From the NCBI RefSeq assembly GCF_001650025.1, contig NZ_LVVY01000062.1, positions 1 to 64,000 on the forward strand: a stretch of DNA of 64,000 nt, read 5' to 3'. Shown piece after piece: positions 3,137-63,083 of the stretch. The stretch comes from Devosia elaeis (GTDB taxonomy: Bacteria > Pseudomonadota > Alphaproteobacteria > Rhizobiales > Devosiaceae). How positions within the stretch are numbered: position 1 is the stretch's first letter; each line of letters opens with the position of its first letter. A program made the position numbers and the translations under genes. The notes under the pieces were generated by a model. That model worked only from the letters and a program-made list of their open reading frames with translations, had not been told where the DNA came from and made no database searches.

Positions 3137-3523
3137 ATGTCTGTCAGAGCCCGCCCCACATCCCCGCATTTGCAGATCTACCGCTGGACCATCACCATGG
3201 CCATGTCGATCCTCCATCGCGCCACCGGCATCGCCAATTATGCCGGCATGGCGCTGTTCGCGATCTGGCTGGTCGCGGCGGCGATGGGGCAGGAGGCGCT
3301 GACCGCCGTCAATTTCATCTATGGCAGCTGGCTGGGCCAGGTGGCGCTGTTCGGCTTCACCTGGAGCCTGGTGCATCACATGCTGGGGGGCTTGCGCCAC
3401 TGGGTCTGGGATTTCGCGGTGATGATGGAGCCGGGGCAGCGCGAGGCCCTGGCCTGGGCGACGCTGGCCGGCTCGGTGATCCTCACCCTCCTCATCTGGA
3501 CCGTTTTCGTGTGGGCTGCCTGA
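3137..3523 (+). CDS. sdhC: Succinate dehydrogenase cytochrome b556 subunit SdhC
   Basis: The 128-residue membrane anchor has three predicted helices. It carries the family signature from RPTSPHLQIYRW and SILHRATGIANY to HHMLGGLRHWVWDF, which contains the heme-ligand histidine and the quinone-site serine/arginine region. With SdhD it anchors SdhAB in the inner membrane, binds heme b and passes electrons to ubiquinone (complex II). It starts the sdhCDAB operon, and sdhD follows after 1 bp. Confidence 0.95.
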   Translation: MSVRARPTSPHLQIYRWTITMAMSILHRATGIANYAGMALFAIWLVAAAMGQEALTAVNFIYGSWLGQVALFGFTWSLVHHMLGGLRHWVWDFAVMMEPGQREALAWATLAGSVILTLLIWTVFVWAA

Positions 3524-44553: not shown

Positions 44554-44581
44554 ACCCTAGTGCGAACCAAGGACCTTACCC

Positions 44582-45160
44582 ATGACCAAGACCGCCACCG
44601 GCCAGACCATTGGCTACGCCCGCACCTCGACCGTCGATCAGATTGCCGGTCTCGAAGCCCAGGTAACCGAACTGACTGCCGCAGGCGTTGACCGGCTCTT
44701 CACCGAACAGGTGAGCAGCGTTGCCGAGCGCGCCCAGCTTGACGCCGCCATGGCCTATGCCCGCGAAGGCGACAGCTTCGTCGTCACGAAGCTGGACAGG
44801 CTGGCGCGTTCCGTTTCCGATCTCGTCGCCATCGCTGACGTCCTGAGGGCCAAGGGCGTGGCGCTCCGTATCCTGTCCCCCGATATCGATACCTCGACGC
44901 CGATGGGGCAACTCATGCTGAACCTGTTGGCCGCAATCGCACAGTTCGAAAGGCAGATCATGTTGGAACGCCAGCGGGAAGGCATCGCGAAGGCGAAGCG
45001 TGAAGGTCGATATGCCGGGAGACAGAAAACCGCCCAACGCCATGCTGCGAAGGTCAAGGAGCTTGCCGCCGCTGGTGCCAAACCGGCCAATATCGCACAG
45101 GAACTGCGTATCAGCCGGTCCAGCGTCTACCGTCTGCTTGATCGCGGCACCGGCTCATGA
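44582..45160 (+). CDS. Serine recombinase (resolvase/invertase family)
   Basis: The 192-residue protein has the catalytic serine in IGYARTSTVDQ, the conserved Arg-bearing TKLDRLARSVSDLV helix and MGQLMLNLLAAIAQFERQIMLER. A C-terminal helix-turn-helix (ANIAQELRISRSSVYRLL) is the DNA-binding part. It probably resolves multimers of the circular form or acts at a res site; no site is recognised. It starts 28 bp after rep. Confidence 0.93.
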   Translation: MTKTATGQTIGYARTSTVDQIAGLEAQVTELTAAGVDRLFTEQVSSVAERAQLDAAMAYAREGDSFVVTKLDRLARSVSDLVAIADVLRAKGVALRILSPDIDTSTPMGQLMLNLLAAIAQFERQIMLERQREGIAKAKREGRYAGRQKTAQRHAAKVKELAAAGAKPANIAQELRISRSSVYRLLDRGTGS

Positions 45161-49201: not shown

Positions 49202-50155
49202 TCAGTGTGGCGTGGGCCAGTGGTGCGATCCGAAGGGGTAGCCGTTGATCGCGATGCGCGTCGAGGGCGTGTCCCCATGGAAGGCGGCCCGATGGAACCG
49301 GCCGGGCGGCACATAGACCACATCGCCGGCATCGGCGACGAAGAAATCCGCGCCTTCGATCAGGTAGCTGATCTGGCCTTCCATCACGAACCAGAACTCG
49401 GCGTAGTCCACGTGGAAATGGCCGATATTGGTCGGAGAGGGGACGCCATTGGCGGTGCCGCGTATGATGTTGACGAAGCTGCGATCGTCCCTGGTGAGGG
49501 GGCCGTTCGGTCCCTTTTCGGTGTTCTCGACTTCCCAGAAGAAGTCCAGATAGGGCTTGCTGTCCTGGCGCTCATAGGTATCGGGCTTGTCCAGGCGGCT
49601 CAGATACCATTCGTGCCCCTCCGGAGCTTCCGGCAGGTCGGCCTCGGCCGCTTCGGGATAGAGCAGGGTGGCATTGGCGTTGAAGATCTCGAAATGCAAT
49701 GAGGGACCGTCGCCCACATTGGCCAGGGTGAAGGGCGTGCGGAACGGTACCTGAACCATGAAGCCCTTGGTGGCGACGAAGGGGTCCTGGTCGCCAATGG
49801 TGACCTCGACTTCGCCGTCCCAGACGATGAAGCTGGTCCGGTGATCGGCGAGCAGCAGGGTGGGGGATGTTTCCCCCGCCGCCATTTGCACATAGGCGGC
49901 CCTCAAATGCTTGTCGTCAACGACCTGGTGATGCCAGCTGTCCTCGCCTTCATGGCTGGCCAGGACCTCGGAAAGCCTGGTGTGCATCTGGTGCACGCCG
50001 GTATAGGGCGCAGGCTCGACCGGCTTCGGAGTCCAGGCGAGCACGGGGGGCGGGGCGTCGGCGCTCTGGGCCATGGCAATGCCGCCCAGGCCCATATTCA
50101 ACGACAGGGCGCCCAGAACGGCGATCCCAAGCCCTGCTAACCTTGATCTACTCAC
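49202..50155 (-). CDS. Secreted double-cupin protein
   Basis: The 317-residue protein starts at GTG 50155 with a strong AAGGAGGAGG site. A signal peptide ends GGIAMAQS. Two cupin domains follow: the first with DHRTSFIVWDGEVEVTIGD, the second with classic metal ligands GHFHVDYAEFWFVMEG and a closing VVYVPPGRFHRAAFHG. It probably binds a metal ion in the periplasm; the enzyme type is unknown. A palindrome resembling the proposed IclR operator lies about 105 bp upstream (50259-50273). Confidence 0.83.
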   Translation of the reverse strand: MSRSRLAGLGIAVLGALSLNMGLGGIAMAQSADAPPPVLAWTPKPVEPAPYTGVHQMHTRLSEVLASHEGEDSWHHQVVDDKHLRAAYVQMAAGETSPTLLLADHRTSFIVWDGEVEVTIGDQDPFVATKGFMVQVPFRTPFTLANVGDGPSLHFEIFNANATLLYPEAAEADLPEAPEGHEWYLSRLDKPDTYERQDSKPYLDFFWEVENTEKGPNGPLTRDDRSFVNIIRGTANGVPSPTNIGHFHVDYAEFWFVMEGQISYLIEGADFFVADAGDVVYVPPGRFHRAAFHGDTPSTRIAINGYPFGSHHWPTPH

Positions 50156-50258
50156 GGCCTCCTCCTTTTTCTTCCGCAAGAACAAAGATGTATGCGTGCG
50201 CGGCAACAGCGGAACCACAAGCCGGTCCAGCCGCTGCGAACACTGACTGTCCACGATA

Positions 50259-50273
50259 TGGGCGAACTGTCCA
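50259..50273. promoter_or_regulatory. IclR-type operator candidate upstream of the cupin gene
   Basis: On the minus strand the site reads TGGACA-GTT-CGCCCA, one position off the TGGACA-N3-TGCCCA dyad found at three other places in the cluster. It lies about 105 bp before the cupin start. Confidence 0.55.
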
Positions 50274-50384
50274 TAGAATGGTGAGGGATGGCGGCGCAGG
50301 TTGTCAAGCCCGCGGGGGGCCAGAAGTCGTTCCGTGCAGCAGCGCATTGGAGCGGTTCAGGTTCTGACGGAAGCGGCTCCATCG

Positions 50385-50480
50385 CCCCCTCCCCCTTGCG
50401 GGGAGGGACGGGGAGGGGGTGGTTTGGCTGCCAACGATGGGACCCCCACCCCCAACCCCTCCCCTCAAGGGGGAGGGAGC
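50385..50480. repeat. Inverted pair of CCCTCCCCTTGAGGGG-type repeats, third block
   Basis: CCCCCTCCCCCTTGCGGGGA at 50389 faces CCCCTCCCCTCAAGGGGGAG near 50457-50476 across a short centre with GGGGG/CCCCC arms. It lies in the gap between iclR and the cupin gene. Confidence 0.7.
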
Positions 50481-50594
50481 AAAAGGCCACGATTTCAGCC
50501 AAGAGCGAGCCGATCTAGCGGGCGCGCGCGATCACGCCCCGTCCAGGTCGAAGACCGCAATGGCGGGAAACGCGCGAGAATGGGCCGGTCTGGC

Positions 50595-51389
50595 CTAGAT
50601 GATCACGGCGAGCTTTGCGGTGATGTCTTTTGCGGTCTTGAACACCAGGCTGGCGATCTTCGCATGACGTTCGGGATCATGGCGATAGACCGGCATGCTG
50701 ACGCTGATGGCGCCAACCGGCTCCCCCGATCGATCGAAGATCGGGCTGCCGACGCAGCGGATATCGGGCTCGTTTTCCTCGTCATCGAAGGCATAGCCGC
50801 GCTCGCGTGACTTGATCAGTTCCTTCCGCAGCCTGTCGGGATCGGTATAGGTTTTCTCCGTATGCCGGCGGAGCGTGAGCTGGCCGAGCACCTCGTTCAG
50901 ACGGTCGTCGGACAGGCCGGAGAGCCAGGCCTTGCCCACCGAGGTCGAGTGCAGTTCCACCTGTCCGCCGATGCTGGTCTTCATCTGGACCGTGTTCGAG
51001 CCCTCGATCTTGTCGATATAGACCATGCGATTGGAGCTCGGGACCGCCAGATGCACCACCTCGTCGGTGGCATCGCGCAGCGAGACGAGGAATTCGCGCG
51101 CAACGGTGCGCAAATCCGAGCTTTCCCAGGTCTTGGCGGCGAGTTGCAGCAAGCGGGGGCCCAGCCGATAGGTGCCGTCCTCGCGGTGATGCACGACGAG
51201 TTGCTCGGCCACCAGGGCCGCGACCAGCCGGTATACGGTGCCGCGCGGGAAGGGGACGCTCTTGGTGAGCTGTCCAATGTCCAGGCCTCGCGGCGCGTCG
51301 GCAATGGACTGCAGGACCGTCATAAACTTGGAAAAGGACGCCGCACCCTGCACCTGGTTGCCGGTCCGGGCGTTCTCGTCATCCTGCAT
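50595..51389 (-). CDS. IclR-family transcriptional regulator
   Basis: The 264-residue protein has an N-terminal winged helix-turn-helix (MTVLQSIADAPRGLDIGQLT, RGTVYRLVAALVAEQL) and a C-terminal ligand-binding domain (VHLAVPSSNRMVYIDKIEGS, GKAWLSGLSD, GYAFDDEENEPDIRCVGSPI). I chose the ATG at 51389 because GGAGGA lies seven bases upstream; the ATG at 51419 adds ten residues. Divergent from the TRAP operon, with a palindrome at 51446-51460 between them. The effector is unknown. Confidence 0.9.
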   Translation of the reverse strand: MQDDENARTGNQVQGAASFSKFMTVLQSIADAPRGLDIGQLTKSVPFPRGTVYRLVAALVAEQLVVHHREDGTYRLGPRLLQLAAKTWESSDLRTVAREFLVSLRDATDEVVHLAVPSSNRMVYIDKIEGSNTVQMKTSIGGQVELHSTSVGKAWLSGLSDDRLNEVLGQLTLRRHTEKTYTDPDRLRKELIKSRERGYAFDDEENEPDIRCVGSPIFDRSGEPVGAISVSMPVYRHDPERHAKIASLVFKTAKDITAKLAVII

Positions 51390-51445
51390 TGCGCGGTCCT
51401 CCATATCGGAACTTGACATCCCCGATGCTCATCGGTACTCAATTA

Positions 51446-51460
51446 TGGGCACTATGTCCA
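51446..51460. promoter_or_regulatory. IclR-type operator between iclR and the TRAP operon
   Basis: On the minus strand the site is TGGACA-TAG-TGCCCA. It shares both half-sites with 57903-57917. It lies 57 bp upstream of iclR and 160 bp upstream of the DUF1330 gene, a typical divergent control position. Confidence 0.65.
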
Positions 51461-51620
51461 CAATATAGACATCGCCTTCTCGTGTCGTCCTGGGGGGAGA
51501 CAGGCCGACTACTGCATATCAGCCGCCAGGCCCGCTGGTAGCAAGCCGTAGTCGCGGAGATCCTGTGCGTAACCTGACGCGTCCAGACACTTGAACCGCG
51601 AATTGCCGGAGGAGGAAATC

Positions 51621-51911
51621 ATGAGCAAGAAGGGCTATTGGGTCGCGATGGTCGATATCGCGGACCAGGAGGGCTACAAGGAATATATCGCACTCAACAA
51701 GGCGGCCTTCGACAAGTTCGGCGCCAAGTTCATCGTGCGGGCCGGCAAGAGCGAAATCATGGAAGGCGCTTCCGCCAATCGCTTGGCGGTCATTGAGTTC
51801 GCCGACTTCGATACGGCCCTGGCATGCTACAATTCTCCCGAATACCAGACGGCGCTGCGCGTCCGCGAGAAATATTCCAAGGCTCATTTCGCCGTCGTGG
51901 AAGGTGTGTGA
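51621..51911 (+). CDS. DUF1330 protein
   Basis: The 96-residue protein matches the DUF1330 ferredoxin-like alpha-beta fold: KKGYWVAMVDIADQEGYKEY, FIVRAGKSEIMEGASANRLA and YNSPEYQTALRVREKYSKA. Members occur next to catabolic genes. The molecular role is unproven. A strong site (GGAGGAGGAAATC) precedes the ATG. It opens the operon that continues with the TRAP transporter. Confidence 0.88.
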   Translation: MSKKGYWVAMVDIADQEGYKEYIALNKAAFDKFGAKFIVRAGKSEIMEGASANRLAVIEFADFDTALACYNSPEYQTALRVREKYSKAHFAVVEGV

Positions 51912-52016
51912 TGAGCCGGGAATGCGCTGACCGCCCCGCGGCAAAACACGGCCGAACGCTCTCCTCTGCGCCAAGCGCCCGCCCGGCGGGGACGGCCCTG
52001 ACGTCCGGGAGCCGAA

Positions 52017-52568
52017 ATGCCTAGGCCATTGCAAAGTCTCAACAAGATCATCGACATCCTGGTCGTGGCCGGAATGGCCGTAATGAGCGCGATGGTCTTC
52101 CTGAACGTCGTGCTCCGCTATGGCTTCAATTCCGGCATCCCCATCTCCGTCGAGCTGTCCCGGATCATCTTCGTCTGGGTCGTCATGCTCGGATCGATCG
52201 TCGCGCTGGCCAATGGCGCGCATCTGGCGGTCGATGCATTCGTGGCCAGGCTGCCGCCCAAGGGGCGATATATCTGCTTCCTCGTCGCCCACGCGCTGAT
52301 GCTCTGGTGCTGCTGGCTCCTGTGGCAGGGCAGCTGGACCCAGACGATGCTGAACTGGAACAACCACGCCGCGCTTTCGGGGCTCTCGGTCGGCTACGTC
52401 TATGCGTCGGGCCTGGTGGCGGCATTGCTGATGGGCATGCTGCTGGTGATCAATCTTTATAAGTCGCTGCGCGGAGAACTGCCGCCCACCTGGTCGGGCG
52501 TCACCGAAAACAGCCCGCCTGCCGAGGCCATCGCTGCCGCGGCCGCCATCAAGGAGCAGGCCAAATGA
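52017..52568 (+). CDS. TRAP transporter small permease (DctQ-type)
   Basis: The 183-residue protein has four predicted membrane helices in the DctQ order (VVAGMAVMSAMVFLNVVLRY, SRIIFVWVVMLGSIVALANG and two more) and a Glu/Ala-rich cytoplasmic tail. The small subunit pairs with DctM for sodium-coupled uptake of an organic acid bound by the periplasmic DctP. The end overlaps the next gene start by 4 nt. Confidence 0.92.
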   Translation: MPRPLQSLNKIIDILVVAGMAVMSAMVFLNVVLRYGFNSGIPISVELSRIIFVWVVMLGSIVALANGAHLAVDAFVARLPPKGRYICFLVAHALMLWCCWLLWQGSWTQTMLNWNNHAALSGLSVGYVYASGLVAALLMGMLLVINLYKSLRGELPPTWSGVTENSPPAEAIAAAAAIKEQAK

Positions 52569-53842
52569 CGGTGGTCGTCTTTCTGGGCTCCCTGCTGGGC
52601 GCCATCGGCATCGGCGTGCCGATCAGCTTTGCCTTGATGGTCGCCGGCGTGGCGCTGATGCTGTTGTTCGGCAATCTCGACGCGCAAATCCTGGCGCAAA
52701 AGCTCATCGACGGCGCCGACTCCTATCCGCTGATGGCCATCCCGTTCTTCCTGATCGCCGGTGAACTGATGAACGCGGGCGGGCTTTCGCGCCGCATCGT
52801 GGCGTTCGCGCTGGCCCTGTTCGGGCACCTACGCGGCGGGCTCGGCTATGTCGTTATCGGCACCGGCCTCATCCTTGCCAGTTTGTCGGGTTCGGCCATT
52901 GCCGATACGGCGACCCTGGCCGTGATGCTGATCCCGCTCATGCGGCAGGCGGGCTATGACATTCCCCGCTCCAGCGGCCTCATGGCGGCCACGGGCATCA
53001 TCGCGCCCATCATTCCGCCGTCGGTGGGGTTCGTCATCCTTGGCGTTACCGCCAATATTTCCATCGTCAGCCTGTTCCTGGCCGGCATTGTGCCCGGCCT
53101 GCTGATGGCGGCCAGCCTGACAATTACCTGGTGGCTCCTGTCGCGCAAGGATACGGCAAATGTCCTGCCGCGCCAGCCGCTGTCGGAAGTGCTCAAGAGC
53201 CTGGTTTCGGCGGTATGGGCCCTGTTCCTGCCGGTGATCATCCTGGTCGGCCTGCGCTTCGGCGTGTTCACGCCAACCGAAGCCGGCGTGATCGCGGCGG
53301 CCTATGCGCTCTTTGTCGGTCTCTTCGTTTATCGCGAACTGACGCCGGCAAAGCTCTATGAGGCCTTGCTGGCGGCGGGGCGCATGACTGCGGTGATCAT
53401 GCTGCTGGTTGCGGCCTCGATGGTCACGGCCTTCATGATCGCGATCGCCAATCTGCCGGGCGCGCTCATTAGCATGCTCAGCCCGTTCATGGACTCGCCG
53501 ACCATGCTGATGGCAGCGATTGCGCTGATGGTGTTCATCATCGGCATGGTGCTCGATTTCGCGCCGGCGATCGCGATCCTGGTGCCGGTATTCATGCCTG
53601 TGGTGAAGACCGCCGGAATCGACCCGATCTATTTCGGCGTCATTTTCCTGATGGTCGCCGCAATAGGCATGATCACGCCGCCCGTGGGGGCGGTGCTCAA
53701 TACAGTATGCGGGATCAGCAAGATTTCCATGGCCGCAGTGGTCAAAGGGGTCTGGCCGTTCCTTTTGGCGGAAGTACTCGTCGTGGTCCTTCTGATCATT
53801 TTCCCGGACCTGGTCCTGGTCCCGATGTCCTGGTTCAGATAA
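52565..53842 (+). CDS. TRAP transporter large permease (DctM-type)
   Basis: The 425-residue integral membrane protein has about 12 helices with DctM signatures (GVPISFALMVAGVALMLLFG, SGSAIADTATLAVMLIPLM, TGIIAPIIPPSVGFVILGV, IGMITPPVGAVLNTVCGI). It is the ion-coupled channel of a tripartite TRAP importer. Start ATG overlaps the DctQ stop by 4 nt. Confidence 0.94.
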   Translation: MTVVVFLGSLLGAIGIGVPISFALMVAGVALMLLFGNLDAQILAQKLIDGADSYPLMAIPFFLIAGELMNAGGLSRRIVAFALALFGHLRGGLGYVVIGTGLILASLSGSAIADTATLAVMLIPLMRQAGYDIPRSSGLMAATGIIAPIIPPSVGFVILGVTANISIVSLFLAGIVPGLLMAASLTITWWLLSRKDTANVLPRQPLSEVLKSLVSAVWALFLPVIILVGLRFGVFTPTEAGVIAAAYALFVGLFVYRELTPAKLYEALLAAGRMTAVIMLLVAASMVTAFMIAIANLPGALISMLSPFMDSPTMLMAAIALMVFIIGMVLDFAPAIAILVPVFMPVVKTAGIDPIYFGVIFLMVAAIGMITPPVGAVLNTVCGISKISMAAVVKGVWPFLLAEVLVVVLLIIFPDLVLVPMSWFR

Positions 53843-53859
53843 TTAGAGGAGGAGTAGAA

Positions 53860-54852
53860 ATGAAGAATTTAGTGCCCCTTGCGGCGCTGGTCGGCCTGCT
53901 GGCCGTGTCAGTGCCGGCCCATGCCCAAACCGCCCGGCTCGGCTATGTGCCGACGGAAGACCATCCGGTCGGCATGGCATCCGTGTTCTTCGCCGAAAAG
54001 GTGAAGGAGAAGACGGATGGCCGGATCACTATCGAGACGTTCGGCAATGGCGTGCTCGGCAGCGAGCCGCAATTGCAATCGTCCATCCAGGGCGGTTTCC
54101 TGGACGTGATGGTGGGACCCACCTCCAACCTTGTGGGCACGGTCCCCGAATACCTGATCTTCGACCTTCCCTTCTTCTATCCGGACTTCGAGGCGGTTGA
54201 CGCCGTGATGGACGGCGATGTCGGCAAGTTCCTCTTCGAACGTCTCGACACGGAGATGGGCATTGTCGGCCTGGCCTATTGGGACAATGGCTTCCGCCAC
54301 ATCACCAATGCGGTTCGCCCGATCAACACTATCGAGGACCTGAGCGGGCTCAAGATCCGCGTGATCCCCAATCCGCTGTTCCTTTCCACGTTCGAGACGC
54401 TCGGTACCAATCCGGTGCCGTTGCCCTATCCCGAACTCTACAATGCCCTGGAAAGCGGGGCGGTGGAGGCCCAGGAGACCCCGGTGGGCCTGATCCATTC
54501 CAGCCGCTTCTATGAAGTGCAGGACCATCTGGCGCTGACGGGCCACGTCTATACCCCGTTCGTGCTGCTCGCCAGCAAGCGCTGGTTCGACGGCCTCAGC
54601 GACGAGGACCGCGCCGCGGTGCTCGAAGCGGCACAGGAAGCCGCCGTCTACCAGCGGGATCTCTCGCGGTCCGATGCCGACCGCCTGACGGGCCTGCTCG
54701 AGGAAGAGGGCATGCAGGTTACCCGCCTTACCGAGGAAGAGATGGCCAAGCTGCGCGAACGCGTTGCCCCGGTCGTCGAGCGGTTCAGCGAGGAGATCGG
54801 CACCGACCTCGTGCAACAGGCACGCGCCGCCATGGACGCGGTTGCCGACTAA
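53860..54852 (+). CDS. TRAP transporter substrate-binding protein (DctP-type)
   Basis: The 330-residue periplasmic protein has a signal peptide (LVPLAALVGLLAVSVPAHAQ). The conserved binding residues lie in the DctP-family segments: VKEKTDGRITIETFGNGVLG, FDLPFFYPDFEAVDAV, YWDNGFRHITNAVRPI and LSGLKIRVIPNPLF, with the usual arginine that binds a carboxylate. The ligand is unknown. GAGGAGGAGTAGAA precedes the ATG at 53860. The longer frame upstream overlaps dctM. A terminator follows at 54867-54902. Confidence 0.92.
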   Translation: MKNLVPLAALVGLLAVSVPAHAQTARLGYVPTEDHPVGMASVFFAEKVKEKTDGRITIETFGNGVLGSEPQLQSSIQGGFLDVMVGPTSNLVGTVPEYLIFDLPFFYPDFEAVDAVMDGDVGKFLFERLDTEMGIVGLAYWDNGFRHITNAVRPINTIEDLSGLKIRVIPNPLFLSTFETLGTNPVPLPYPELYNALESGAVEAQETPVGLIHSSRFYEVQDHLALTGHVYTPFVLLASKRWFDGLSDEDRAAVLEAAQEAAVYQRDLSRSDADRLTGLLEEEGMQVTRLTEEEMAKLRERVAPVVERFSEEIGTDLVQQARAAMDAVAD

Positions 54853-54866
54853 ATAGACAGGTCATG

Positions 54867-54902
54867 CTGTAGCCGGGCGCGCCTGGCTACAGCCATTTTT
54901 TA
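54867..54902 (+). terminator. Intrinsic terminator after the TRAP operon
   Basis: Arms CTGTAGCC (54867-54874) and GGCTACAG (54885-54892) flank a GC-rich loop and are followed by CCA and a run of six T. It ends the DUF1330-TRAP operon. The next gene has its own start 11 bp downstream. Confidence 0.88.
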
Positions 54903-54913
54903 AAGAGTTTCTC

Positions 54914-55912
54914 ATGCGGTTGATCCAGTTTAGCGCCCCCGGCGGGTCGCGCCATGTCGGCATCGTCGACGGTGACCAAATCCATCAGGTTCGGGAGGTG
55001 GAAAGCGTCCGGGAGGTGGCCCTGATGGCCGTGGCCCGGGGGACGAAGATCGAAGACGAAATCCTGCGCCTGGGATCGGGCCAAAGCCACGATTATGCGA
55101 CGCTGCTCGCGACGGGGAAGGTCTTGCCGCCGATCGACCATCCGGACGCCGCGCACACGATCATTGCCGGCACCGGCCTGACCCATATCGGCAGCGCGGC
55201 TTCCCGCTCGGCCATGCACGACACCGCCCAGAACGCGGCGGAGACGGACATGAACGACACCATGCGCATGTTCAAATGGGGCCTGGACGGCGGACGCCCT
55301 GCCGAGGGGCGCGCCGGGGTGCAGCCGGAATGGTTCTACAAGGGCGATGGATCGATGGTGGCCTCGCCGGGTGCCGATTTGCTGGCGCCGGACTTCAGCA
55401 TCGATGTGGGCGAGGAGCCCGAGATCGTCGGCCTCTACATGATCGGCAAGGACAATCGCCCCTATAGGCTGGGCTACGCGATCGGGAACGAAGTGACCGA
55501 CCACGTGATGGAGAAGCAGAACTATCTCTATCTGGCGCATGCCAAACTGCGCCAATGCTCATTCGGCCCCGAGCTCTTTCTCGGCGATTTGCCGGCCAGC
55601 GTGGAGGGGCGGGCGCGCATCCTCCGCGCGGGAGAAACGATCTGGGAAAAGCCCTTTCCCACCGGCGAAGAGAACATGTCCCACTCGATCGCCAATATCG
55701 AGTTCCACCATTTCAAGTACAATCATTTCCTGCGCGCCGGCGACGTGCATGTCATCTTCATGGGCACCTCGGTCGCGTCCTTCGCTGATGGCGTGAAGAC
55801 CCAGCCGGGGGATGTCTTCGAGATCGACATCCCGCTTTTCGGCCGGCCGCTGACAAACACGGTGCGATTGGTGGAAACCCGGACCAGCCCGGGCGGCATC
55901 CGGCAGCTCTGA
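54914..55912 (+). CDS. AraD1/GguC-family protein (FAH superfamily)
   Basis: The 332-residue protein has the MRLIQFSAPGGSRHVGIVDG start and an FAH-fold region with QPEWFYKGDGSMVASPGADL, a GEEPEIVGLYMIG metal-site segment and IVFMGTSVAS-like strand (VIFMGTSVASFADG). The Agrobacterium GguC and AraD1 proteins act on 2-keto-3-deoxy sugar acids; the substrate here is not known. It is separated from dctP by a terminator but on the same strand. It converges with the SDR gene. Confidence 0.85.
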   Translation: MRLIQFSAPGGSRHVGIVDGDQIHQVREVESVREVALMAVARGTKIEDEILRLGSGQSHDYATLLATGKVLPPIDHPDAAHTIIAGTGLTHIGSAASRSAMHDTAQNAAETDMNDTMRMFKWGLDGGRPAEGRAGVQPEWFYKGDGSMVASPGADLLAPDFSIDVGEEPEIVGLYMIGKDNRPYRLGYAIGNEVTDHVMEKQNYLYLAHAKLRQCSFGPELFLGDLPASVEGRARILRAGETIWEKPFPTGEENMSHSIANIEFHHFKYNHFLRAGDVHVIFMGTSVASFADGVKTQPGDVFEIDIPLFGRPLTNTVRLVETRTSPGGIRQL

Positions 55913-55924
55913 TCCTGCGGCCTC

Positions 55925-55961
55925 CTAAAAACCGCCCGGCTGGCATTGCCCGGCCGGGCGG
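55925..55961 (-). terminator. Terminator of the ADH-SDR unit
   Basis: Reading minus, CCGCCCGG and CCGGGCGG pair around a loop, then a T-run (TTTTT) and AGG. It lies 9 bp after the SDR stop and near the end of the convergent AraD1 gene, so it may serve both. Confidence 0.7.
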
Positions 55962-55969
55962 ATGATGCG

Positions 55970-56716
55970 CTAGAGACCGCCTGAAACGGTGAGCAATGTG
56001 CCCGTGACAAAGCCGGAGCCGGGCGAGGCCAGCCATAGGGCCGCCCTTGCGATGTCGTCCGGCTCGGCGATCCGCCCCATGGGGGTGATCGCCGCGATCC
56101 GGGCCGGGCGATCCGGATTGCCGCCTTGGCTATGTATGCGCGTATTGGTGGTGCCCACGCGAATGGCGTTGACCCGGATGCCTTCCGGCGCGAGCTCCTT
56201 GCCTGTGCCGAAGGTTATCGATTCAACGGCGCCCTTGGTGGCGGCGTAGTGAATATATTCGTTGGGGCTGCCGAGCGCGGCGGCCAGGGACGACATGTTC
56301 ACGATCGATCCGCCCGTACCACCACTCTTCGTGGACATCCTCACGGCCGCCTGCTGGATGCAATAGACCAGCCCGAAGACATTGACCTGGAATGTCTTTT
56401 CAAGCGTGGCGGGATCGAGATCGACCAGCTTGCCGGCCTTGCCGATCAGGCCGGCATTGTTGATCAGGCAGGACACGCGCCCAAGCCCGGTGTCGCATTG
56501 TTCAAACAATCCCTGCACGTCGGCGCGGTCGCCCACATCGCCCTGAACGGCGATGGCCCGGGCTCCATTGGCCTCACAGGCGGCGACGACCCCGGCGGCC
56601 GCCGCGTGATCGGACAGGTAATTGATGCATATGTCATAGCCTTGGGCCGAAAAGAGCCTGGCGGTTGCGGCGCCAATGCCGTGGCTGGCGCCGGTAACAA
56701 TGCAGATGGGCCTCAA
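55970..56716 (-). CDS. Short-chain dehydrogenase/reductase
   Basis: The 248-residue classical SDR has the NAD(P) loop TGASHGIGAATARLF, NNAG, the catalytic S-N...YxxxK (Ser in VNMSSLAAALG, YIHYAATKGAVE) and a C-terminal helix. The TTG at 56716 is the start: AGGGGA lies seven bases upstream and no ATG is near. It follows the iron-type alcohol dehydrogenase by 10 bp. It may oxidise a hydroxy acid or sugar alcohol in the same pathway. Confidence 0.9.
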   Translation of the reverse strand: MRPICIVTGASHGIGAATARLFSAQGYDICINYLSDHAAAAGVVAACEANGARAIAVQGDVGDRADVQGLFEQCDTGLGRVSCLINNAGLIGKAGKLVDLDPATLEKTFQVNVFGLVYCIQQAAVRMSTKSGGTGGSIVNMSSLAAALGSPNEYIHYAATKGAVESITFGTGKELAPEGIRVNAIRVGTTNTRIHSQGGNPDRPARIAAITPMGRIAEPDDIARAALWLASPGSGFVTGTLLTVSGGL

Positions 56717-56726
56717 TGCTCGTCCC

Positions 56727-57854
56727 CTAATAGACTGCTTCGATGATCTGGGCGTATTCGGCGGCCGATAGCGCCCGCGGATTGGTCGCGTGGCTGTGGT
56801 CCGCAATCGCCCGCTCGCAGATCCAGGGGATGATGTCCCGCGTCACGCCGAGCTCGGACAATCTGGCGCCGATGCCGAGCCTGGCGTTCAGGTTTTCGAG
56901 GTTGTCGGCCAGGGAGCCCCTGGGCAGGCCGACCAGATCCTCCAATTGCGCGACCTTGCGGGCGGCGGATTCTATCTCGCAGTTCCAGCGGAGCACTACC
57001 GGCATGAGAATGGCGTTCAGCATGCCGTGGTGGAGCTTCAGCTCCTTCAGGCCGCCAAGCGCGTGGCTGAGGGCGTGGACGGCACCCAATCCCTTCTGAA
57101 AGGTCATGCCGCCTTCCAGGGCGCCCATCATCAGTTCGGTTCTTGCCAGGAGGTTGGCGGGCTCCTCGAAAGCGACGGGCAATGCCGCCCAGATGCGCTG
57201 GAACCCGTCCCGGGCAATCGCCTCTGCCGGCGGATTGTAGCGCGGCGACAGCAGGCTCTCGATGCAATGCGACAGGGCATCGAGACCCGTTGCGGCGGTC
57301 AGGGCCGGCGGCAGGCCGGTCGTCAGCTCGGGGTCGCAGATCGCGCGCCTGGGAATGAGATGCGGACTGATGAAGCCAAGCTTGCGCCCATCTTCGAGGG
57401 TGAGCAGGGCCGCGCGGCCGACCTCCGAGCCCGTGCCCGCAGTGGTGGGGACGGCGACGAGAGGCGCCACGTTCTGCGTGATGCGGGCGATGCCGCCCTC
57501 TATGGCCGCATATTGCTCCAGCGGCCCGTCATGGGTGGCAAGAAGCGTAATCCCCTTGGCCAAATCCAGCGGCGAGCCGCCGCCAATGGCCACCACGCCG
57601 TCGCATCCATGCTGGCGATAGAGGCTCAAACCGGCCAATACGGCACTTTCGGTAGGGTTTGTCGGCACGTCGAGGAAGGTCGGCGCCCCGGCCAGGATTT
57701 CGAGGCCCGGCCGCTCCAGAAGGCCCGCCGCCTTGATGCCGTGATCGCTGACGAGCAGGGGGCGCGAAATGCCCAGTTGCGACAATATTTCCTTCAGAGA
57801 CCCGATGGCGCCTGCCCCAAAGTAAACCGTCGACAAGTAGCTGATTATATCCAT
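56727..57854 (-). CDS. Iron-containing alcohol dehydrogenase
   Basis: The 375-residue group III alcohol dehydrogenase has GGGSPLDLAKG, PTTAGTGSEVGRAALLT, the metal-ligand region GLDALSHCIESL and GAVHALSHALGGL with HHGMLNAILMP. The family uses Fe(II) and NAD(P) to oxidise short alcohols, lactaldehyde or maleylacetate-like compounds. The true substrate is unknown. Its promoter region contains two operator-like palindromes shared with the divergent dehydrogenase. Confidence 0.9.
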   Translation of the reverse strand: MDIISYLSTVYFGAGAIGSLKEILSQLGISRPLLVSDHGIKAAGLLERPGLEILAGAPTFLDVPTNPTESAVLAGLSLYRQHGCDGVVAIGGGSPLDLAKGITLLATHDGPLEQYAAIEGGIARITQNVAPLVAVPTTAGTGSEVGRAALLTLEDGRKLGFISPHLIPRRAICDPELTTGLPPALTAATGLDALSHCIESLLSPRYNPPAEAIARDGFQRIWAALPVAFEEPANLLARTELMMGALEGGMTFQKGLGAVHALSHALGGLKELKLHHGMLNAILMPVVLRWNCEIESAARKVAQLEDLVGLPRGSLADNLENLNARLGIGARLSELGVTRDIIPWICERAIADHSHATNPRALSAAEYAQIIEAVY

Positions 57855-57902
57855 CGGCTCCCCCTTCTAATGCCAGCTCCCACAAGCCGAATGCCCAAAT
57901 AG

Positions 57903-57917
57903 TGGACAATATGCCCA
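57903..57917. promoter_or_regulatory. IclR-type operator, left copy in the divergent region
   Basis: TGGACA-ATA-TGCCCA is a 6-3-6 dyad with the same half-sites as 51446-51460 (minus strand). It is 49 bp upstream of the alcohol dehydrogenase start. Confidence 0.65.
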
Positions 57918-58002
57918 AGTTTGGTGGAGCGTGTCAGCGTAGGCCATAGCTGTCAAGAGCGGGTTGACGCTGCCGGCCGTTCAAACTACGTTATCCACTA
58001 TA

Positions 58003-58017
58003 TAGGCAATATGCCCA
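58003..58017. promoter_or_regulatory. IclR-type operator, right copy in the divergent region
   Basis: TAGGCA-ATA-TGCCCA differs from the left copy by two bases, keeping the ATA spacer and the TGCCCA arm. It lies 76 bp upstream of the hydroxyacid dehydrogenase start. Confidence 0.62.
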
Positions 58018-58092: not shown

Positions 58093-59025
58093 TTGAGCAC
58101 CATACTCATTCCCGGATGGATGCATGAGCACGCTCGCGATGTGCTCTCCCGCCGCTTCAAGCTGATCGAAATCGACCAGGCCGATGCCGTGCCGGCGCTT
58201 GCCGAAGACCAGAGGCGCGCCATCCTGGGCATTGCATGCCGGGCCGGCATCAGCGCGGAAACGATGCAGGCTTTGCCCAATCTGCAGATCATTGCGAGTT
58301 TCGGCGTCGGCTATGACATGATCGACATCGCAGGCGCGCGGGCGCGGGGTGTTGTTGTCACCAATACGCCGGACGTGCTGAACGAGGAAGTTGCCGACAC
58401 AAGCGTGGGCTTGCTGCTGAACGTCGTCCGGGACCTGTCCCGTGCGGAGGCCTATGTCCGCGCCGGCCAGTGGGAGCATGCGGACTATCCGCTGTCCCGC
58501 CTCACCCTGCGGGAGCGTGTGGTCGGCATTTACGGCATGGGCCGCATCGGCCAATGCATCGCCCGGCGGCTCGAGGCCTTTGGTGTGGGCATCTGCTATC
58601 ACAACAGACAAGAGGCCCCCGACCTGCCCTATCGCTATTTGGCCTCGCTGATGGAAATGGCGGCGCATGTGGATACGCTCATTTCCATCGTGCCCGGCAC
58701 GCCGTCCACCGCCTTGACCATCAACGGCGCGGTGCTCGCGGCGCTGGGCCCGGATGGGGTCTTCATCAATATGGGCCGCGGCAGCGTCGTGGACGAAGCG
58801 GCGCTGCTCGCCGCGCTCCGGTCCGGCACGATCGCGGCGGCCGGTCTCGACGTCTTCGCAAACGAACCTCATATCGACAAGGAACTGCTCGCGCTCCCGA
58901 ACCTCACCGTGCTGCCGCATGTCGGTTCGGCTTCGCAGCACACGCGCCGGGCGATGGGCGACCTGGTGGCCCGCAACCTCATCACCTGGTTCGAGACGGG
59001 GCGCGCCCTGACCCCGGTGTACTGA
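58093..59025 (+). CDS. D-2-hydroxyacid dehydrogenase
   Basis: The 310-residue enzyme has the NAD loop GIYGMGRIGQCIARRL, the catalytic Arg in INMGRGSVVDEAAL, a Glu in VFANEPHID and His in LPHVGSASQHTRR. These read as glyoxylate/hydroxypyruvate or phosphoglycerate-type reductases; specificity is unclear. The TTG start at 58093 has GGGGGAGGCGA upstream. It is divergent from the alcohol dehydrogenase gene with shared operators in between. Confidence 0.9.
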   Translation: MSTILIPGWMHEHARDVLSRRFKLIEIDQADAVPALAEDQRRAILGIACRAGISAETMQALPNLQIIASFGVGYDMIDIAGARARGVVVTNTPDVLNEEVADTSVGLLLNVVRDLSRAEAYVRAGQWEHADYPLSRLTLRERVVGIYGMGRIGQCIARRLEAFGVGICYHNRQEAPDLPYRYLASLMEMAAHVDTLISIVPGTPSTALTINGAVLAALGPDGVFINMGRGSVVDEAALLAALRSGTIAAAGLDVFANEPHIDKELLALPNLTVLPHVGSASQHTRRAMGDLVARNLITWFETGRALTPVY

Positions 59026-59060: not shown

Positions 59061-59825
59061 CTATCCATGGCCCGGCCCTTGCGCGGCGCGGCGATTGAGC
59101 TCGAGCATATTGGTCATTTCGGCTTCCGCAGCCACGGGGTCGCGCCGCTTGATCGCCTCCGCCACGCCGATATGGCCGGCGCGGCTGACCGGCCCCTGAT
59201 TCTTGAACAGAACGCCGTATTCGTACGAAATCCTCAGCATGGTCAGGAATATCGGGCGCAATTGGCGCATCAACAGATTTCCGGTGGCGTCCAATATGGT
59301 GGCGTGGAAGGCGCAATCGGCTGCGAAAAGATCGTCCACCGCGCCATCTTCCGGATGCATGGCATAGGCCGCCTCCAGGATGGCCGCGACCTGTTCGCCG
59401 GTCGCCCGCTCCGCCGCCAGGGCGGCGGCTTTCGGCTCGATGATGCTGCGCAGTTCCGTGGTTTCGGCGAACATGAGCTGCAATCGGGGATGGCTCGGAT
59501 CGTGCCAGGCGGCGACATCCGCATCGAGCAGGTTCCATTCCTCCACCGGCCGCACCCGGGTCCCGTAGCGGCGGGCCGTGCGCACCATGCCCTTGCCCGA
59601 CAACACCTTGATGGCATCGCGAACCGTGGCCCGGCTGACCCCCAGGGAACAGGCCAGTTCCGGTTCCGTTGGCATCACCGTTTCGGGGCGATAGGTGTCA
59701 TTGGCGATGCGGCGGCCGAGAACGTCCACCGCGATCCTGGTGGCGCCTGCCGGCAGGGCGGCGCCGAGATTGGCCGGAAGCGCCAGAGCCGGCGTCCTGG
59801 GCCGCGATGGGCTCGCATCGTTCAT
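59061..59825 (-). CDS. FCD-domain GntR-family regulator (FadR subfamily)
   Basis: The 254-residue protein has an N-terminal GntR winged helix (PTEPELACSLGVSRATVRDA, KVLSGKGMVRTARRYGTRVR). An FCD domain follows, with the metal-binding DADCAFHATIL-type motif (AADCAFHATILDATGNLL) and a histidine near the C-terminus. The ligand is probably a small carboxylate. It is convergent with the hydroxyacid dehydrogenase gene (gap 35 bp) and divergent from the response regulator gene. Confidence 0.9.
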   Translation of the reverse strand: MNDASPSRPRTPALALPANLGAALPAGATRIAVDVLGRRIANDTYRPETVMPTEPELACSLGVSRATVRDAIKVLSGKGMVRTARRYGTRVRPVEEWNLLDADVAAWHDPSHPRLQLMFAETTELRSIIEPKAAALAAERATGEQVAAILEAAYAMHPEDGAVDDLFAADCAFHATILDATGNLLMRQLRPIFLTMLRISYEYGVLFKNQGPVSRAGHIGVAEAIKRRDPVAAEAEMTNMLELNRRAAQGPGHG

Positions 59826-59940
59826 TGTCGATCTTTACATCTGATCTAAGGGGCTGCACATTGTCCCATGTCCTCACCCTTTGTCCGTGGCGTCAACGGC
59901 AAAAGAGACCTCAGAGGCGACGCCTTGGTAAGCCGGTTCC

Positions 59941-60672
59941 ATGACGAACGTGTCTGACACCATACTTATCGCCGAGGATGATCCCGTCTATCGCTCCTTC
60001 ATCAGGCAGGCGATCGCGGAGAGCGACCTCTGCGGGCTCAATGTCGAAGAGGCGACCGATGGCGGTGCGGCGGTGCGGCTGGCCAAGCAATTGCGGGCCA
60101 AGTTCGTCGTCCTGGACCTGCAGATGCCGGTTCTGTCCGGCGTGGAGGCCGCCCGGCAAATCTGGTCCTTCGAGCCGCGCACCAGCATCCTGTTCTGGTC
60201 CAATTTCGCCGACGAATCCTATGTCCGGGGCCTGGCGCGGATCGTGCCGACCGAGGCGAGCTATGGTTACCTGCTCAAGTCGTCGTTTTCCTCGCGCCTT
60301 CGCGGAGCCCTGGAAGGCGTCTTTCTCGACGGCCAATGCATAATCGACCGGGAAATCCGGGGCATCCAGGCGCGGGCGGAGAAGTGGAACGAGACATTGA
60401 GCAATGCCGAATATGACATGCTCGTGGACATTTCGCTCGGCCTGACCGACCTGGCCATCGCCGGGCGGCACGGCCTTTCCACCCGAGGCGTCCAGAGCCG
60501 GCTGCAAAAGCTCTATACCAAGCTGGGCGTCAATATCCCGGAAACGGGGGGCGGGGACGCCATCTTCAATCCCAGGTCCAGGGCCGTCTGCGTGGCCGTG
60601 CTCCGCGGCATCATCAATGCCGAACTGATCGGCCGGCTGCGTCAGCAGGAAGCGGCTGGCGCCGAGCCATGA
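59941..60672 (+). CDS. NarL-type response regulator without a nearby kinase
   Basis: The 243-residue protein has a receiver domain with IAEDDPVYR, phosphoacceptor Asp59 (FVVLDLQMP) and Lys in GYLLKSSF. A C-terminal LuxR-type helix-turn-helix follows (LSNAEYDMLVDISLGLTDLA, LSTRGVQSRLQKLYTKLGV). No sensor kinase gene is visible in the window. It lies upstream of the tautomerase-lactonase-ABC operon and may regulate it. Confidence 0.87.
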   Translation: MTNVSDTILIAEDDPVYRSFIRQAIAESDLCGLNVEEATDGGAAVRLAKQLRAKFVVLDLQMPVLSGVEAARQIWSFEPRTSILFWSNFADESYVRGLARIVPTEASYGYLLKSSFSSRLRGALEGVFLDGQCIIDREIRGIQARAEKWNETLSNAEYDMLVDISLGLTDLAIAGRHGLSTRGVQSRLQKLYTKLGVNIPETGGGDAIFNPRSRAVCVAVLRGIINAELIGRLRQQEAAGAEP

Positions 60673-60771
60673 CCCATACTGTGGAAACCCGCACTTCCAG
60701 ACCGCGCCACTGCGCTTCTTTGCAGCGGGGGCGCCTGCCTATCCTCCCCTGTAACTGGAGGAAAGATCGAA

Positions 60772-60975
60772 ATGCCATACATACATATCGACTGGGTCTC
60801 GGGGCAGGGCGATGAGCGTCGCGACGAAGTGGCCAAGCGCGTGACCCACGCCGTCAATGAAATTACCGGTATCGCGCTGACGGACATCTGGGTGGTGTTC
60901 CGGGATATCGAAGCGAAGGAGTGGTATGTCGGTGACCGCTCCGTGGCCGACAGGCGCGCGGGGAAGACCGGATGA
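60772..60975 (+). CDS. 4-oxalocrotonate tautomerase-family protein
   Basis: The 67-residue protein begins MPYIHIDWVS. The proline after the initiator methionine is the catalytic base of the family, and an Arg follows in VFRDIEAKEW. It is a small cytosolic enol-keto tautomerase for an unidentified oxo-acid. TGGAGGAAAGATCGAA is the ribosome site. Its stop overlaps the next start by 4 nt (ATGA). Confidence 0.85.
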   Translation: MPYIHIDWVSGQGDERRDEVAKRVTHAVNEITGIALTDIWVVFRDIEAKEWYVGDRSVADRRAGKTG

Positions 60976-61862
60976 GCATTATCGTCCGCGATGCCGGCAT
61001 GGAGCGGATCGTTTCCGCAGAAGCGGAGGTGGTGCAAGTGGCCACCGGCTTTCTGTTCACCGAGGGTGCCCTCTGGCACCCTCGCGAGCAGTTCCTGTTG
61101 TTCTCGGACATGCCCGGGGATGTCATCCGCCGCTGGGACGAGAAAAACGGTGTCCAGGTGTTCCGCCGGCCCAGCCAGATGTCCAACGGCCTGACCTATG
61201 ATCGGCAGGGGCGCCTGCTGGCCTGCCATCACGCGACCTCAAGCGTCACGCGCACGGAAGCCGATGGCACCATCACGACGCTGGCCACCCATTACGGGGG
61301 GCGCGCGCTCAACAGCCCCAACGACATCGTCGTGAAGAGCGATGGCAGCATCTATTTTTCCGATCCCAGTTTCGGACGCATGGAATTCTATGGCGTCCCG
61401 CGCGAGCAGGAGCTGGATTTCCGCGGCGTGTTCCGCCTCGGTCCGGATGGCGAGCTGACGCTTCTGGCCGATGATTTCAGCCAGCCCAACGGCCTCTGCT
61501 TCTCGCTCGACGAGCAATTGCTCTATGTCAACGACACCGAGCGCGGGCACATTCGCGTCTTCGACGTGATGGCTGACGGCACGATGGGCAATGGCCGGCT
61601 CTTTGCCAGCACGCGCGGCGACGAGCCCGGCGCGCCAGACGGCATGAAGATCGACAGCCAGGGCAATCTCTATTCCTGCGGGCCAGGCGGCATACACGTC
61701 TTCGCCCCCGGCGGAGAATGGCTCGGCGTCATTCGCATACCGGAAGTCTGCGCGAATTTCACATGGGGAGGTCCCGCGCTGCAGACGCTTTTCGTCACTG
61801 CCAGCACTTCGCTCTATGCGGTCGAAGTGCGCGTGCCGGGGCGAGCCGTCTTCCAAGCTTAG
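60972..61862 (+). CDS. SMP-30/gluconolactonase-family lactonase
   Basis: The 296-residue six-bladed propeller has the metal ligands Glu in FTEGALWHP, Asn in NSPNDIVVKSDG and Asp in PDGMKIDSQG, with FSDPSFG typical of gluconolactonases. It hydrolyses a sugar or aldonolactone; substrate undetermined. No signal peptide is visible. Overlaps the tautomerase stop by 4 nt and is followed by the ABC binding protein gene after 24 bp. Confidence 0.9.
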   Translation: MSIIVRDAGMERIVSAEAEVVQVATGFLFTEGALWHPREQFLLFSDMPGDVIRRWDEKNGVQVFRRPSQMSNGLTYDRQGRLLACHHATSSVTRTEADGTITTLATHYGGRALNSPNDIVVKSDGSIYFSDPSFGRMEFYGVPREQELDFRGVFRLGPDGELTLLADDFSQPNGLCFSLDEQLLYVNDTERGHIRVFDVMADGTMGNGRLFASTRGDEPGAPDGMKIDSQGNLYSCGPGGIHVFAPGGEWLGVIRIPEVCANFTWGGPALQTLFVTASTSLYAVEVRVPGRAVFQA

Positions 61863-61886
61863 AACAGGTCATAGGGAGGATACATC

Positions 61887-63083
61887 GTGACCAAATCTTA
61901 TAATGCATTGCTGCTTTTGGGCGTGACGCTTCTGGCGAGCACCGTGGCCGGATCGGCCCTGGCGCAGGAGGGAGAGCCGATCAGGGTCGGCGTGGCCTTC
62001 CCGCAAACCGGCGCCGGCGCCTCCCAGGGCTCCGACACGGCGCTGGGCATCGAGATGGCCATCGACGAGATCAATGCCAATGGCGGCCTGCTCGGTCGTC
62101 CGGTGGAAATGTTCTGGCGTGATTCCAAGGGCACGCCGGCCGATGCGACCATCGCCGCGCGGGATCTGATCACGCTGGACAATGTCGACTTTTTCCTCGG
62201 CGGCTACAATTCCGGCGAGACGCTGGCCATGTCGGAAGTCGCGCTGCAGGAAGAGGTGATCTACGTCGCCCCGGTCGGCAAGACCATCCAGCTGACCGAC
62301 AATTATCACCCCTACCAGTTCCGGATCGCCGCCAATACGAATACCGAAGGCGGTTCGGCGGCTCTTATCCTCGAGGAATTGGGGGCGCAGAAAATCTGCA
62401 CCATCCTGTTCGACTATGCCTATGGGCACGACCTGCTCAAGGGCTTCGAGAAGGCGCTGGAAAGCGCTGGCTCCGACGCCGAGATCGTTACCCAGGTCTG
62501 GCCGGCGCTCGGCGTCTCCGACTACACGCCCTATATCGGGGAAGTGCTCAATTCCGATTGCGACGGGGTGTTCTCGGGCATCTGGAGCGGCGAGTTCCTG
62601 GCCTTCGCCAAGCAGGCCTCCTCGTTCGGCCTGTTCGACATGGGCAAGCATTGGGCGGCGGCCGGCGAGGTGGGCTCCCAGGACATCATGGAACAGCTTG
62701 GCGCCGACATGCCGAACGGCATTTGGACCAATTCCTACGAGGTCTGGTACTATCCCGATACGCCCGAGCACAATGCCTACCTCGAAAAGGTGCGCGAGCT
62801 GACCGGGAGCGAGCATCCCAATCCCTGGCCGAGCGTGGGCTATATCGGCATGCAGGCGCTGGCCGCCGGCATCGAGGCTGCCGGCAGCACCGAAACCGAC
62901 GCCGTGATCGCGGCGATGGAAGGGCTGTCCTTCGCCTCCCTGGTCGGAGAGCTGACGATCGGCGGCGAGGGCGACCACCAGGCCAATCGCGGCCAGTACT
63001 GGGGCGTCACCGCCGATAGCGAGCATCCGTTCAAGGTGCTTGACGAGGTGCGCTACGTCCCTGCCGACGACATCATGCATTGA
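61887..63083 (+). CDS. Branched-chain-type ABC transporter substrate-binding protein
   Basis: The 398-residue protein starts at GTG 61887 (GGGAGGATACATC upstream). It has a signal peptide ending SALAQ and a type I periplasmic binding fold (IRVGVAFPQTGAGASQGSDT, AIDEINANGGLLGRPVEMFW, FFLGGYNSGETLAMSEVALQ). It probably binds an amino acid, amide or short carboxylate. It is the third gene of the tautomerase-lactonase operon, followed by its permease gene. Confidence 0.92.
   Translation: MTKSYNALLLLGVTLLASTVAGSALAQEGEPIRVGVAFPQTGAGASQGSDTALGIEMAIDEINANGGLLGRPVEMFWRDSKGTPADATIAARDLITLDNVDFFLGGYNSGETLAMSEVALQEEVIYVAPVGKTIQLTDNYHPYQFRIAANTNTEGGSAALILEELGAQKICTILFDYAYGHDLLKGFEKALESAGSDAEIVTQVWPALGVSDYTPYIGEVLNSDCDGVFSGIWSGEFLAFAKQASSFGLFDMGKHWAAAGEVGSQDIMEQLGADMPNGIWTNSYEVWYYPDTPEHNAYLEKVRELTGSEHPNPWPSVGYIGMQALAAGIEAAGSTETDAVIAAMEGLSFASLVGELTIGGEGDHQANRGQYWGVTADSEHPFKVLDEVRYVPADDIMH

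Follow-up and report, generated by a model that had tools for sequence, protein, structure and literature searches.

What controls the catabolic genes gathered around an iclR gene in Devosia elaeis, and what exactly would be recognised in front of them? The 64,000-nucleotide stretch analysed here (the window; contig NZ_LVVY01000062.1, positions 1 to 64,000) carries short palindromes ahead of genes for an IclR-family regulator, a TRAP transporter, dehydrogenases and a cupin protein. An earlier note, made from the letters alone, had read these as simple TGGACA-N3-TGCCCA dyads lying in promoter gaps. We find that each dyad is part of a longer element of three boxes, and we put the probability that the IclR encoded at 50595-51419 is the common binder of the four predicted operators at roughly 0.86.

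The three-box element in the window and the genome

The dyads themselves are present where they had been placed: exact copies lie at 57903-57917 on the plus strand (TGGACAATATGCCCA) and at 51446-51460 on the minus strand (TGGACATAGTGCCCA), and near copies at 50259-50273 (minus strand, TGGACAGTTCGCCCA, one mismatch) and 58003-58017 (plus strand, TAGGCAATATGCCCA, two mismatches). Reading them as simple dyads, however, overlooked that each has a further TGYCCA box on its left, separated from it by 5 bp. The full element is the 26-bp TGYCCA-N5-TGGRCA-N3-TGYCCA, of which the dyad makes up two thirds. It is matched perfectly by TGCCCA-aatag-TGGACA-ata-TGCCCA at 57892-57917 (plus strand), upstream of the genes for an iron-containing alcohol dehydrogenase (Fe-ADH) and a short-chain dehydrogenase (SDR). 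One mismatch each is found in TGTCTA-tattg-TGGACA-tag-TGCCCA at 51446-51471 (minus strand), in the gap between the divergent iclR and DUF1330-TRAP genes, and in TGTCCA-cgata-TGGGCG-aac-TGTCCA at 50248-50273 (plus strand), upstream of the cupin gene. The fourth candidate operator, TATCCA-ctata-TAGGCA-ata-TGCCCA at 57992-58017 (plus strand), lies upstream of a 2-hydroxyacid dehydrogenase gene and has two. Site centres are 39-105 bp ahead of the starts of iclR and the Fe-ADH, hydroxyacid dehydrogenase and cupin genes, and 165 bp ahead of that of DUF1330.

Three of the sites are intergenic as called, in keeping with the placement in promoter gaps, but the one at 50248-50273 falls inside the longest open reading frame of the cupin gene (49202-50347, start 50347). 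We consider it likelier that this frame is over-extended and that translation starts at GTG 50155, because a strong Shine-Dalgarno sequence (AAAGGAGGAGG) precedes that codon and a signal-peptide-like stretch comes after it; with this start, the operator would lie ~93 bp upstream of the gene.

The 15-bp dyad does not by itself single out the cluster. Matches to it in the window with up to three mismatches, counted on both strands, number 135 against a shuffle mean of 60. Across the genome (3,878,148 bases) its R/Y form, TGGRCANNNTGYCCA, occurs exactly at seven places, two of them in the cluster; the literal TGGACA-N3-TGCCCA fits five of the seven, again two in the cluster. With at most one mismatch the R/Y form is found at 94 places, versus 9 for a reversed-pattern control. 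A motif common genome-wide was what the earlier note had itself named as evidence against its proposal, and the dyad by itself would not have passed that check; we rejected the dyad's whole-genome significance because it is too common. The five exact R/Y-form dyads outside the cluster (contigs C61, C80, C81, C86 and C90) were set aside: the sequence around them is free of stops over 1.2-2.7 kb, as expected of coding DNA, and none exceeds 11.8 bits by the full matrix (see below). The three-box pattern with no or one mismatch occurs at three places in the genome, all in the cluster, and a looser version agrees on the top three. Counting matches with up to three mismatches across relatives was uninformative, with similar totals in genomes that lack the regulator, and therefore only the low-mismatch tail carries information.

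A matrix and a profile (R1) were built from 29 sites in 12 loci of other bacteria, none of them from the window. By this matrix no other place in the window scores as high as the four operators, which reach 36.3 bits at 51446-51471, 30.9 at 57892-57917, 29.5 at 50248-50273 and 29.0 at 57992-58017; in 30 simulated sequences of 64 kb (first-order Markov) the highest score was 14.0 bits. A site outside the training set, upstream of iclR in genome G270 (locus L164), reached 37.0 bits. In the R1 search of the genome the operators ranked 1 (51446-51471, the genome's best, E=0.0014), 2 (57892-57917, E=0.033), 3 (57992-58017, E=0.085) and 5 (50248-50273, E=0.17). Two further candidates were discarded: C65:33224, with 14.7-18.3 bits by the matrix, was absent from the R1 matches, and C135:7400, considered as a fifth target, is intergenic with no gene start nearby and is probably a chance match.

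R1 was also compared with 41 related genomes under stricter filters. At E<=0.01 it matched all three genomes with an iclR orthologue (one match each) and none of the 38 that lack one. When the threshold is relaxed to E<=0.2, 7 of these 38 have one match each, about the number expected by chance, and this genome has five. In 27 iclR-paralogue loci (L019-L045), one from each of 27 relatives that lack the orthologue, the maximum score was 17.3 bits, versus 29-36 here.

Association with iclR and the binder of the sites

Orthologues of iclR were found among the 41 genomes in G016 (75% identical) and G036 (53%), and among 397 genomes drawn from the order in G270 (70%). At least 10 named genomes carry an iclR at 51-76% identity among the best 80 matches kept; the matches listed include Rhizobium terrae, Chelatococcus caeni, Nitratireductor aestuarii, Phyllobacterium sp., Aminobacter sp. 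J41, Bosea thiooxidans, Bosea robiniae, Aliihoeflea sp. 2WW, Chelativorans sp. ZYF759 and an Aquamicrobium metagenome-assembled genome. Besides the window, 13 loci whose iclR is at least 51% identical were examined (L046, L047, L054-L063 and L164), and each of them has a three-box site just upstream of the iclR-aligned stretch. A site before the regulator gene, kept in its orthologues, is what autoregulation would predict, and all 13 loci show it.

The position of the 51446-51471 operator is the same in orthologue loci. In the nine DUF1330-TRAP loci (window included), iclR and DUF1330 diverge from a shared gap save in L054, whose TRAP genes are preceded by a separate site of their own. NMT1/ABC-type transporter and SDR genes replace the TRAP neighbours in four loci (L061, judged by Pfam, and L047, L062 and L063, judged by shared family), and the site is still found before iclR. 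A Cupin_7 gene is present in L047 and L061 (and, by family, in L063), and Fe-ADH genes in L061-L063. Five loci have the divergent gap between 2-hydroxyacid dehydrogenase and Fe-ADH genes (the window, L055, L056, L057 and L191), and all five carry a pair of sites there, at a distance of 100-124 bp; in L055 and L057 one of the two falls within an over-long open reading frame end. Sites also occur up to ~320 bp ahead of dctP (L055, L058, L059 and L060) and before an IlvD/Edd-type dehydratase gene (L054 and L056). In G270, two operators at 3428 and 9381 of L201 (G270:C81), on a contig other than that of iclR, score 31.4 and 29.7 bits; they adjoin a gene for a FAD-binding protein and lie ahead of a PNT/alanine-dehydrogenase-type gene, which looks like that of a transhydrogenase alpha subunit. 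One site in L057 precedes a PilN-like gene, a doubtful target.

Control of all four gaps by one regulator, as the earlier note proposed for this IclR, is thus the best-supported reading: comparison across genera indicates that the element tracks iclR orthologues and stays when the neighbours change, and in relatives without an orthologue it is at chance level.

Several observations weigh against this reading. Only one operator has E<0.01, the other three standing individually at 0.03, 0.09 and 0.17 genome-wide, and the ranks come from scoring 150 of 1859 first-look candidates. Rank 4 is taken by C135:7400-7423 (L190; E 0.16), an intergenic match without an obvious target. The consensus used to gather the training sites had itself started from the dyad of the window, and their three-box form is partly a product of selection; the matrix is therefore independent in sequence, not in choice of pattern. 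The longest iclR open reading frame runs into or over the site in L047, L054, L057, L062 and L063, where a later start has to be assumed. At 40-47% iclR identity, no site was found near the iclR start in four of seven loci: in L165-L167 no score within 1.5 kb exceeds 8 bits, and the one site of L168, with 23.1 bits, is 1.3 kb upstream. The near-iclR sites of the other three (L169-L171) score 8.7-12.5 bits, inside the paralogue range. A consensus scan detected no sigma-70-like promoter at three operators; the 57892 operator is overlapped by a match of 9 of 12 positions at 57937-57908, which we rejected as near chance. Finally, the cupin operator depends on the corrected start codon, and 12 orthologue loci (11-21 kb each) yielded no homologue of the cupin when >=38% identity across 60% of the protein was required; because of both points the cupin gene is the least certain target. 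In the genome of L165, two overlapping sites of 30-31 bits lie 2.9 kb from iclR.

If IclR is the binder, how would it act? In the mechanism that we propose, IclR would bind directly to the 26-bp operator of three alternating boxes, whose copies precede four sets of genes: iclR with the divergent DUF1330-TRAP-FAH genes, those for Fe-ADH and SDR, that for the 2-hydroxyacid dehydrogenase and that for the cupin. Binding would repress all of these units, iclR included, and repression would be lifted by an effector that the imported compound supplies, perhaps a sugar acid or a product of its breakdown. We regard repression as probable; with autoregulation it is the simplest reading because a site is centred ~39 bp before iclR. 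An unlikely but still serious alternative is that IclR binds all four sites but acts as a dual regulator, or as an activator that needs an effector, in the manner of PcaU and PobR, which act as activators. Three-box sites are reported for these two proteins, and the IclR family includes activators (Suvorova & Gelfand 2021, PMC8222616). A site centre this close to the iclR start, however, is read more simply as autorepression.

IclR might instead bind a functional site made up only of boxes 2 and 3, the 15-bp group-2-like dyad, box 1 being mere decoration. Column by column, boxes 2 and 3 do hold more information than box 1, and some IclR proteins are described as having group-2 sites (PMC8222616). 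Yet box 1 and the A/T-rich N5 spacer are clearly informative, though box 1 was part of the pattern by which training sites were chosen, and the distant loci L169-L171 keep roughly the group-1 palindrome (box1-N5-box2), at low scores, with box 3 lost or shifted. These features make the shorter site improbable.

Binding by the FCD/GntR regulator encoded at 59061-59825 is a much weaker proposition still. Its gene adjoins that of the hydroxyacid dehydrogenase, and GntR regulators, too, bind short palindromes. However, no homologue of it at >=38% identity over 60% of length occurs in the 12 orthologue loci (11-21 kb) that carry the same sites, and the sites remain upstream of iclR when the neighbours change. 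The palindrome of boxes 1 and 2, moreover, has the group-1 form published for IclR proteins (PMC8222616). That four TGG-CCA palindromes, common in a GC-rich genome, cluster here by accident is scarcely credible: the 94 near-dyads, the similar frequency of looser three-box matches in relatives without the regulator and the individual E values of 0.03-0.17 for three sites leave room for chance, but the genome's only three-box places with no or one mismatch (three) are all in the cluster, and the element upstream of iclR in 13 of 13 close loci examined contradicts it.

Operator architecture

The canonical IclR palindrome is box1-N5-box2, of which the dyad of the earlier note covers only half. Compared with the group-1 consensus TGTYCRYW3RYGRACA, this part of the operators at 50248, 51446, 57892 and 57992 shows 3, 1, 2 and 3 mismatches of 17, respectively, and the 29 training sites, whose own consensus is TGnCCACAATATGGACA, show 0-5 deviations. 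The three-box layout is present in 4 of 4 window sites and in 29 of 29 training sites, the latter partly selected for it. The group-2-like pair, spaced N3, matches the three-box layout, not letter for letter.

A fourth box, N5 further downstream with at most one mismatch, was found at 5 of 32 sites. The window accounts for two of the five, at 50248 and at 57992 (TGGTCG 5 bp beyond the latter). At most other offsets such a box was seen zero or one time, and at one other offset four times. A box N3 upstream of box 1 occurred at 0 of 32 sites with at most one mismatch and is no regular feature. Both counts cover 32 of 33 sites, L056:9-34 being excluded because its flank runs off the locus. The ABC-transporter loci (L047, L061, L062 and L063) have four to five alternating boxes.

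Suvorova & Gelfand 2021 (PMC8222616) predict three-box sites for 32 of 181 IclR orthologous groups and describe IclR proteins as binding as dimers or tetramers, often on tandem palindromes with centres 18-22 nt apart. The design of the operators found here matches these predicted three-box motifs in its group-1 fit, its three alternating boxes and its 20-bp period. It differs from their group-2 consensus as given there in the spacer between boxes 2 and 3 (N3 here versus N1-2) and in box 3 (TGYCCA versus TGTTYCA). Like the PcaU, PobR and HmgR operators as summarised in PMC8222616, it combines a palindrome with an external third half-site, although the half-site sequence differs and those proteins serve aromatic-acid regulons. 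The E. coli IclR operator, TGGAAATNATTTCCA (Table 1 of PMC8222616), is likewise a 15-bp dyad that starts with TGG and ends with CCA, comparable to box2-N3-box3, but that consensus is without a flanking third box and its target genes differ. No description of this regulon or gene combination was found in the literature searched, which did not extend to the supplementary tables of PMC8222616, where the group may be listed.

Boxes 1 and 2 would thus be the canonical 17-bp IclR palindrome, occupied by one dimer, and box 3 would begin a second palindrome whose centre lies 20 bp, or two helical turns, from that of the first; alternatively, box 3 pairs with box 2. We favour a tetramer bound across tandem palindromes, whose junction would be the dyad, because of the fourth box in 5 of 32 sites and the up to five alternating boxes in ABC-type loci; dimerisation in a different way, through box 3 with box 2, is the alternative. 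The orthologous group might even form a natural series in the way IclR proteins read their operators: three-box sites in close orthologues, four to five boxes in the ABC-transporter subgroup, and little more than the group-1 palindrome, box 3 being shifted or lost, in the more distant L169-L171. As the boxes repeat with a 20-bp period, the group-2 dyad could then be the junction of tandem palindromes held by a tetramer, not a second mode of dimerisation, a suggestion that we regard as speculative.

Genes of the cluster and the imported compound

The presumed regulator, iclR (50595-51419, minus strand), encodes HTH_IclR (26.8 bits, cut-off 22) and IclR_C (171 bits, cut-off 24) domains by Pfam. 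All eight matched NCBIfam models (BhcR, KdgR, PcaR/PcaU, IclR, AllR and others) fall under their cut-offs, BhcR reaching 180 of the 350 bits needed. Because every subfamily score is below cut-off, the protein is assigned to the IclR family and to none of the named subfamilies (IclR, KdgR, AllR, BhcR, PcaR/PcaU). Next to it on the same strand is the gene for the two-cupin protein (49202-50155, two Pfam Cupin_2 stretches, signal-peptide-like start; GTG start chosen by inspection). The divergent genes on the plus strand encode a DUF1330 protein (51624-51911, Pfam PF07045), the TRAP small permease DctQ (52017-52568, Pfam), the large permease DctM (52565-53842, Pfam and TIGR00786), the solute-binding protein DctP (53854-54852, Pfam/NCBIfam) and a FAH-superfamily protein of the GguC / AraD1 family (54914-55912, NCBIfam NF040903, 495 bits versus a cut-off of 340). 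Minus-strand genes follow for the SDR (55970-56740, Pfam; best 25 NCBIfam models under cut-off) and the 4-hydroxybutyrate-dehydrogenase-like Fe-ADH (56727-57854, NF058672, 528 bits versus a cut-off of 500). The D-isomer specific 2-hydroxyacid dehydrogenase (58093-59025, plus strand) was recognised by Pfam, with all NCBIfam models under cut-off.

That the imported substrate is a sugar acid is a tentative proposal, to which we give slightly less than even odds. The nearest PDB chain to DctP by sequence is 7bbr (E 4e-81), which we take to be CxaP. CxaP, of a sugar-acid TRAP system in Advenella mimigardefordensis, is described as a sugar-acid binder in PMC11668362 and PMC12076931. In L056, the dehydratase encoded behind an operator fits dihydroxy-acid dehydratase subfamily models of NCBIfam, with an L-arabinonate dehydratase match under cut-off, and that of L054 is 89% identical to it. 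An IlvD/Edd homologue in this genome (C2:25937-27721, L199), 79% identical to that of Nitratireductor, was rejected as a target, as no operator lies near it (best score 3.6 bits); a dehydratase without an operator here possibly reflects loss or gain of a regulon member.

Other features were noted around the cluster and its counterparts. Between iclR and the cupin gene, 50380-50480 contains inverted G/C-rich repeats (ccctcccccttgcggggaggg and similar) that, judged by eye, look like a dispersed intergenic repeat. Beside the cluster, at 59061-63083, genes for the FCD/GntR regulator (FCD and GntR domains), a response regulator, a SMP-30/gluconolactonase-like protein and a periplasmic binding protein are without an operator and are possibly a second locus under separate control. 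A 580-aa open reading frame that matches nothing in Pfam and, after it, a resolvase gene occupy 42811-45160, near the cluster, and are perhaps part of a small mobile element. In Nitratireductor, type II secretion genes (GspD, GspE-like; L056 4995-7208 and 14179-15870) flank iclR, and likewise, by shared families, in Phyllobacterium. The iclR relatives of G274 and G278 (L166 and L169) have one in-frame stop each.

This would otherwise be ordinary catabolic regulation. By the comparisons made here, a regulator, an operator sequence and a list of targets can provisionally be assigned to a catabolic cluster common to at least nine named genera, and the approximately 30 conserved operators, with their varying box numbers, offer a direct test set for the alternative dimerisation proposed for IclR proteins on three-box sites.

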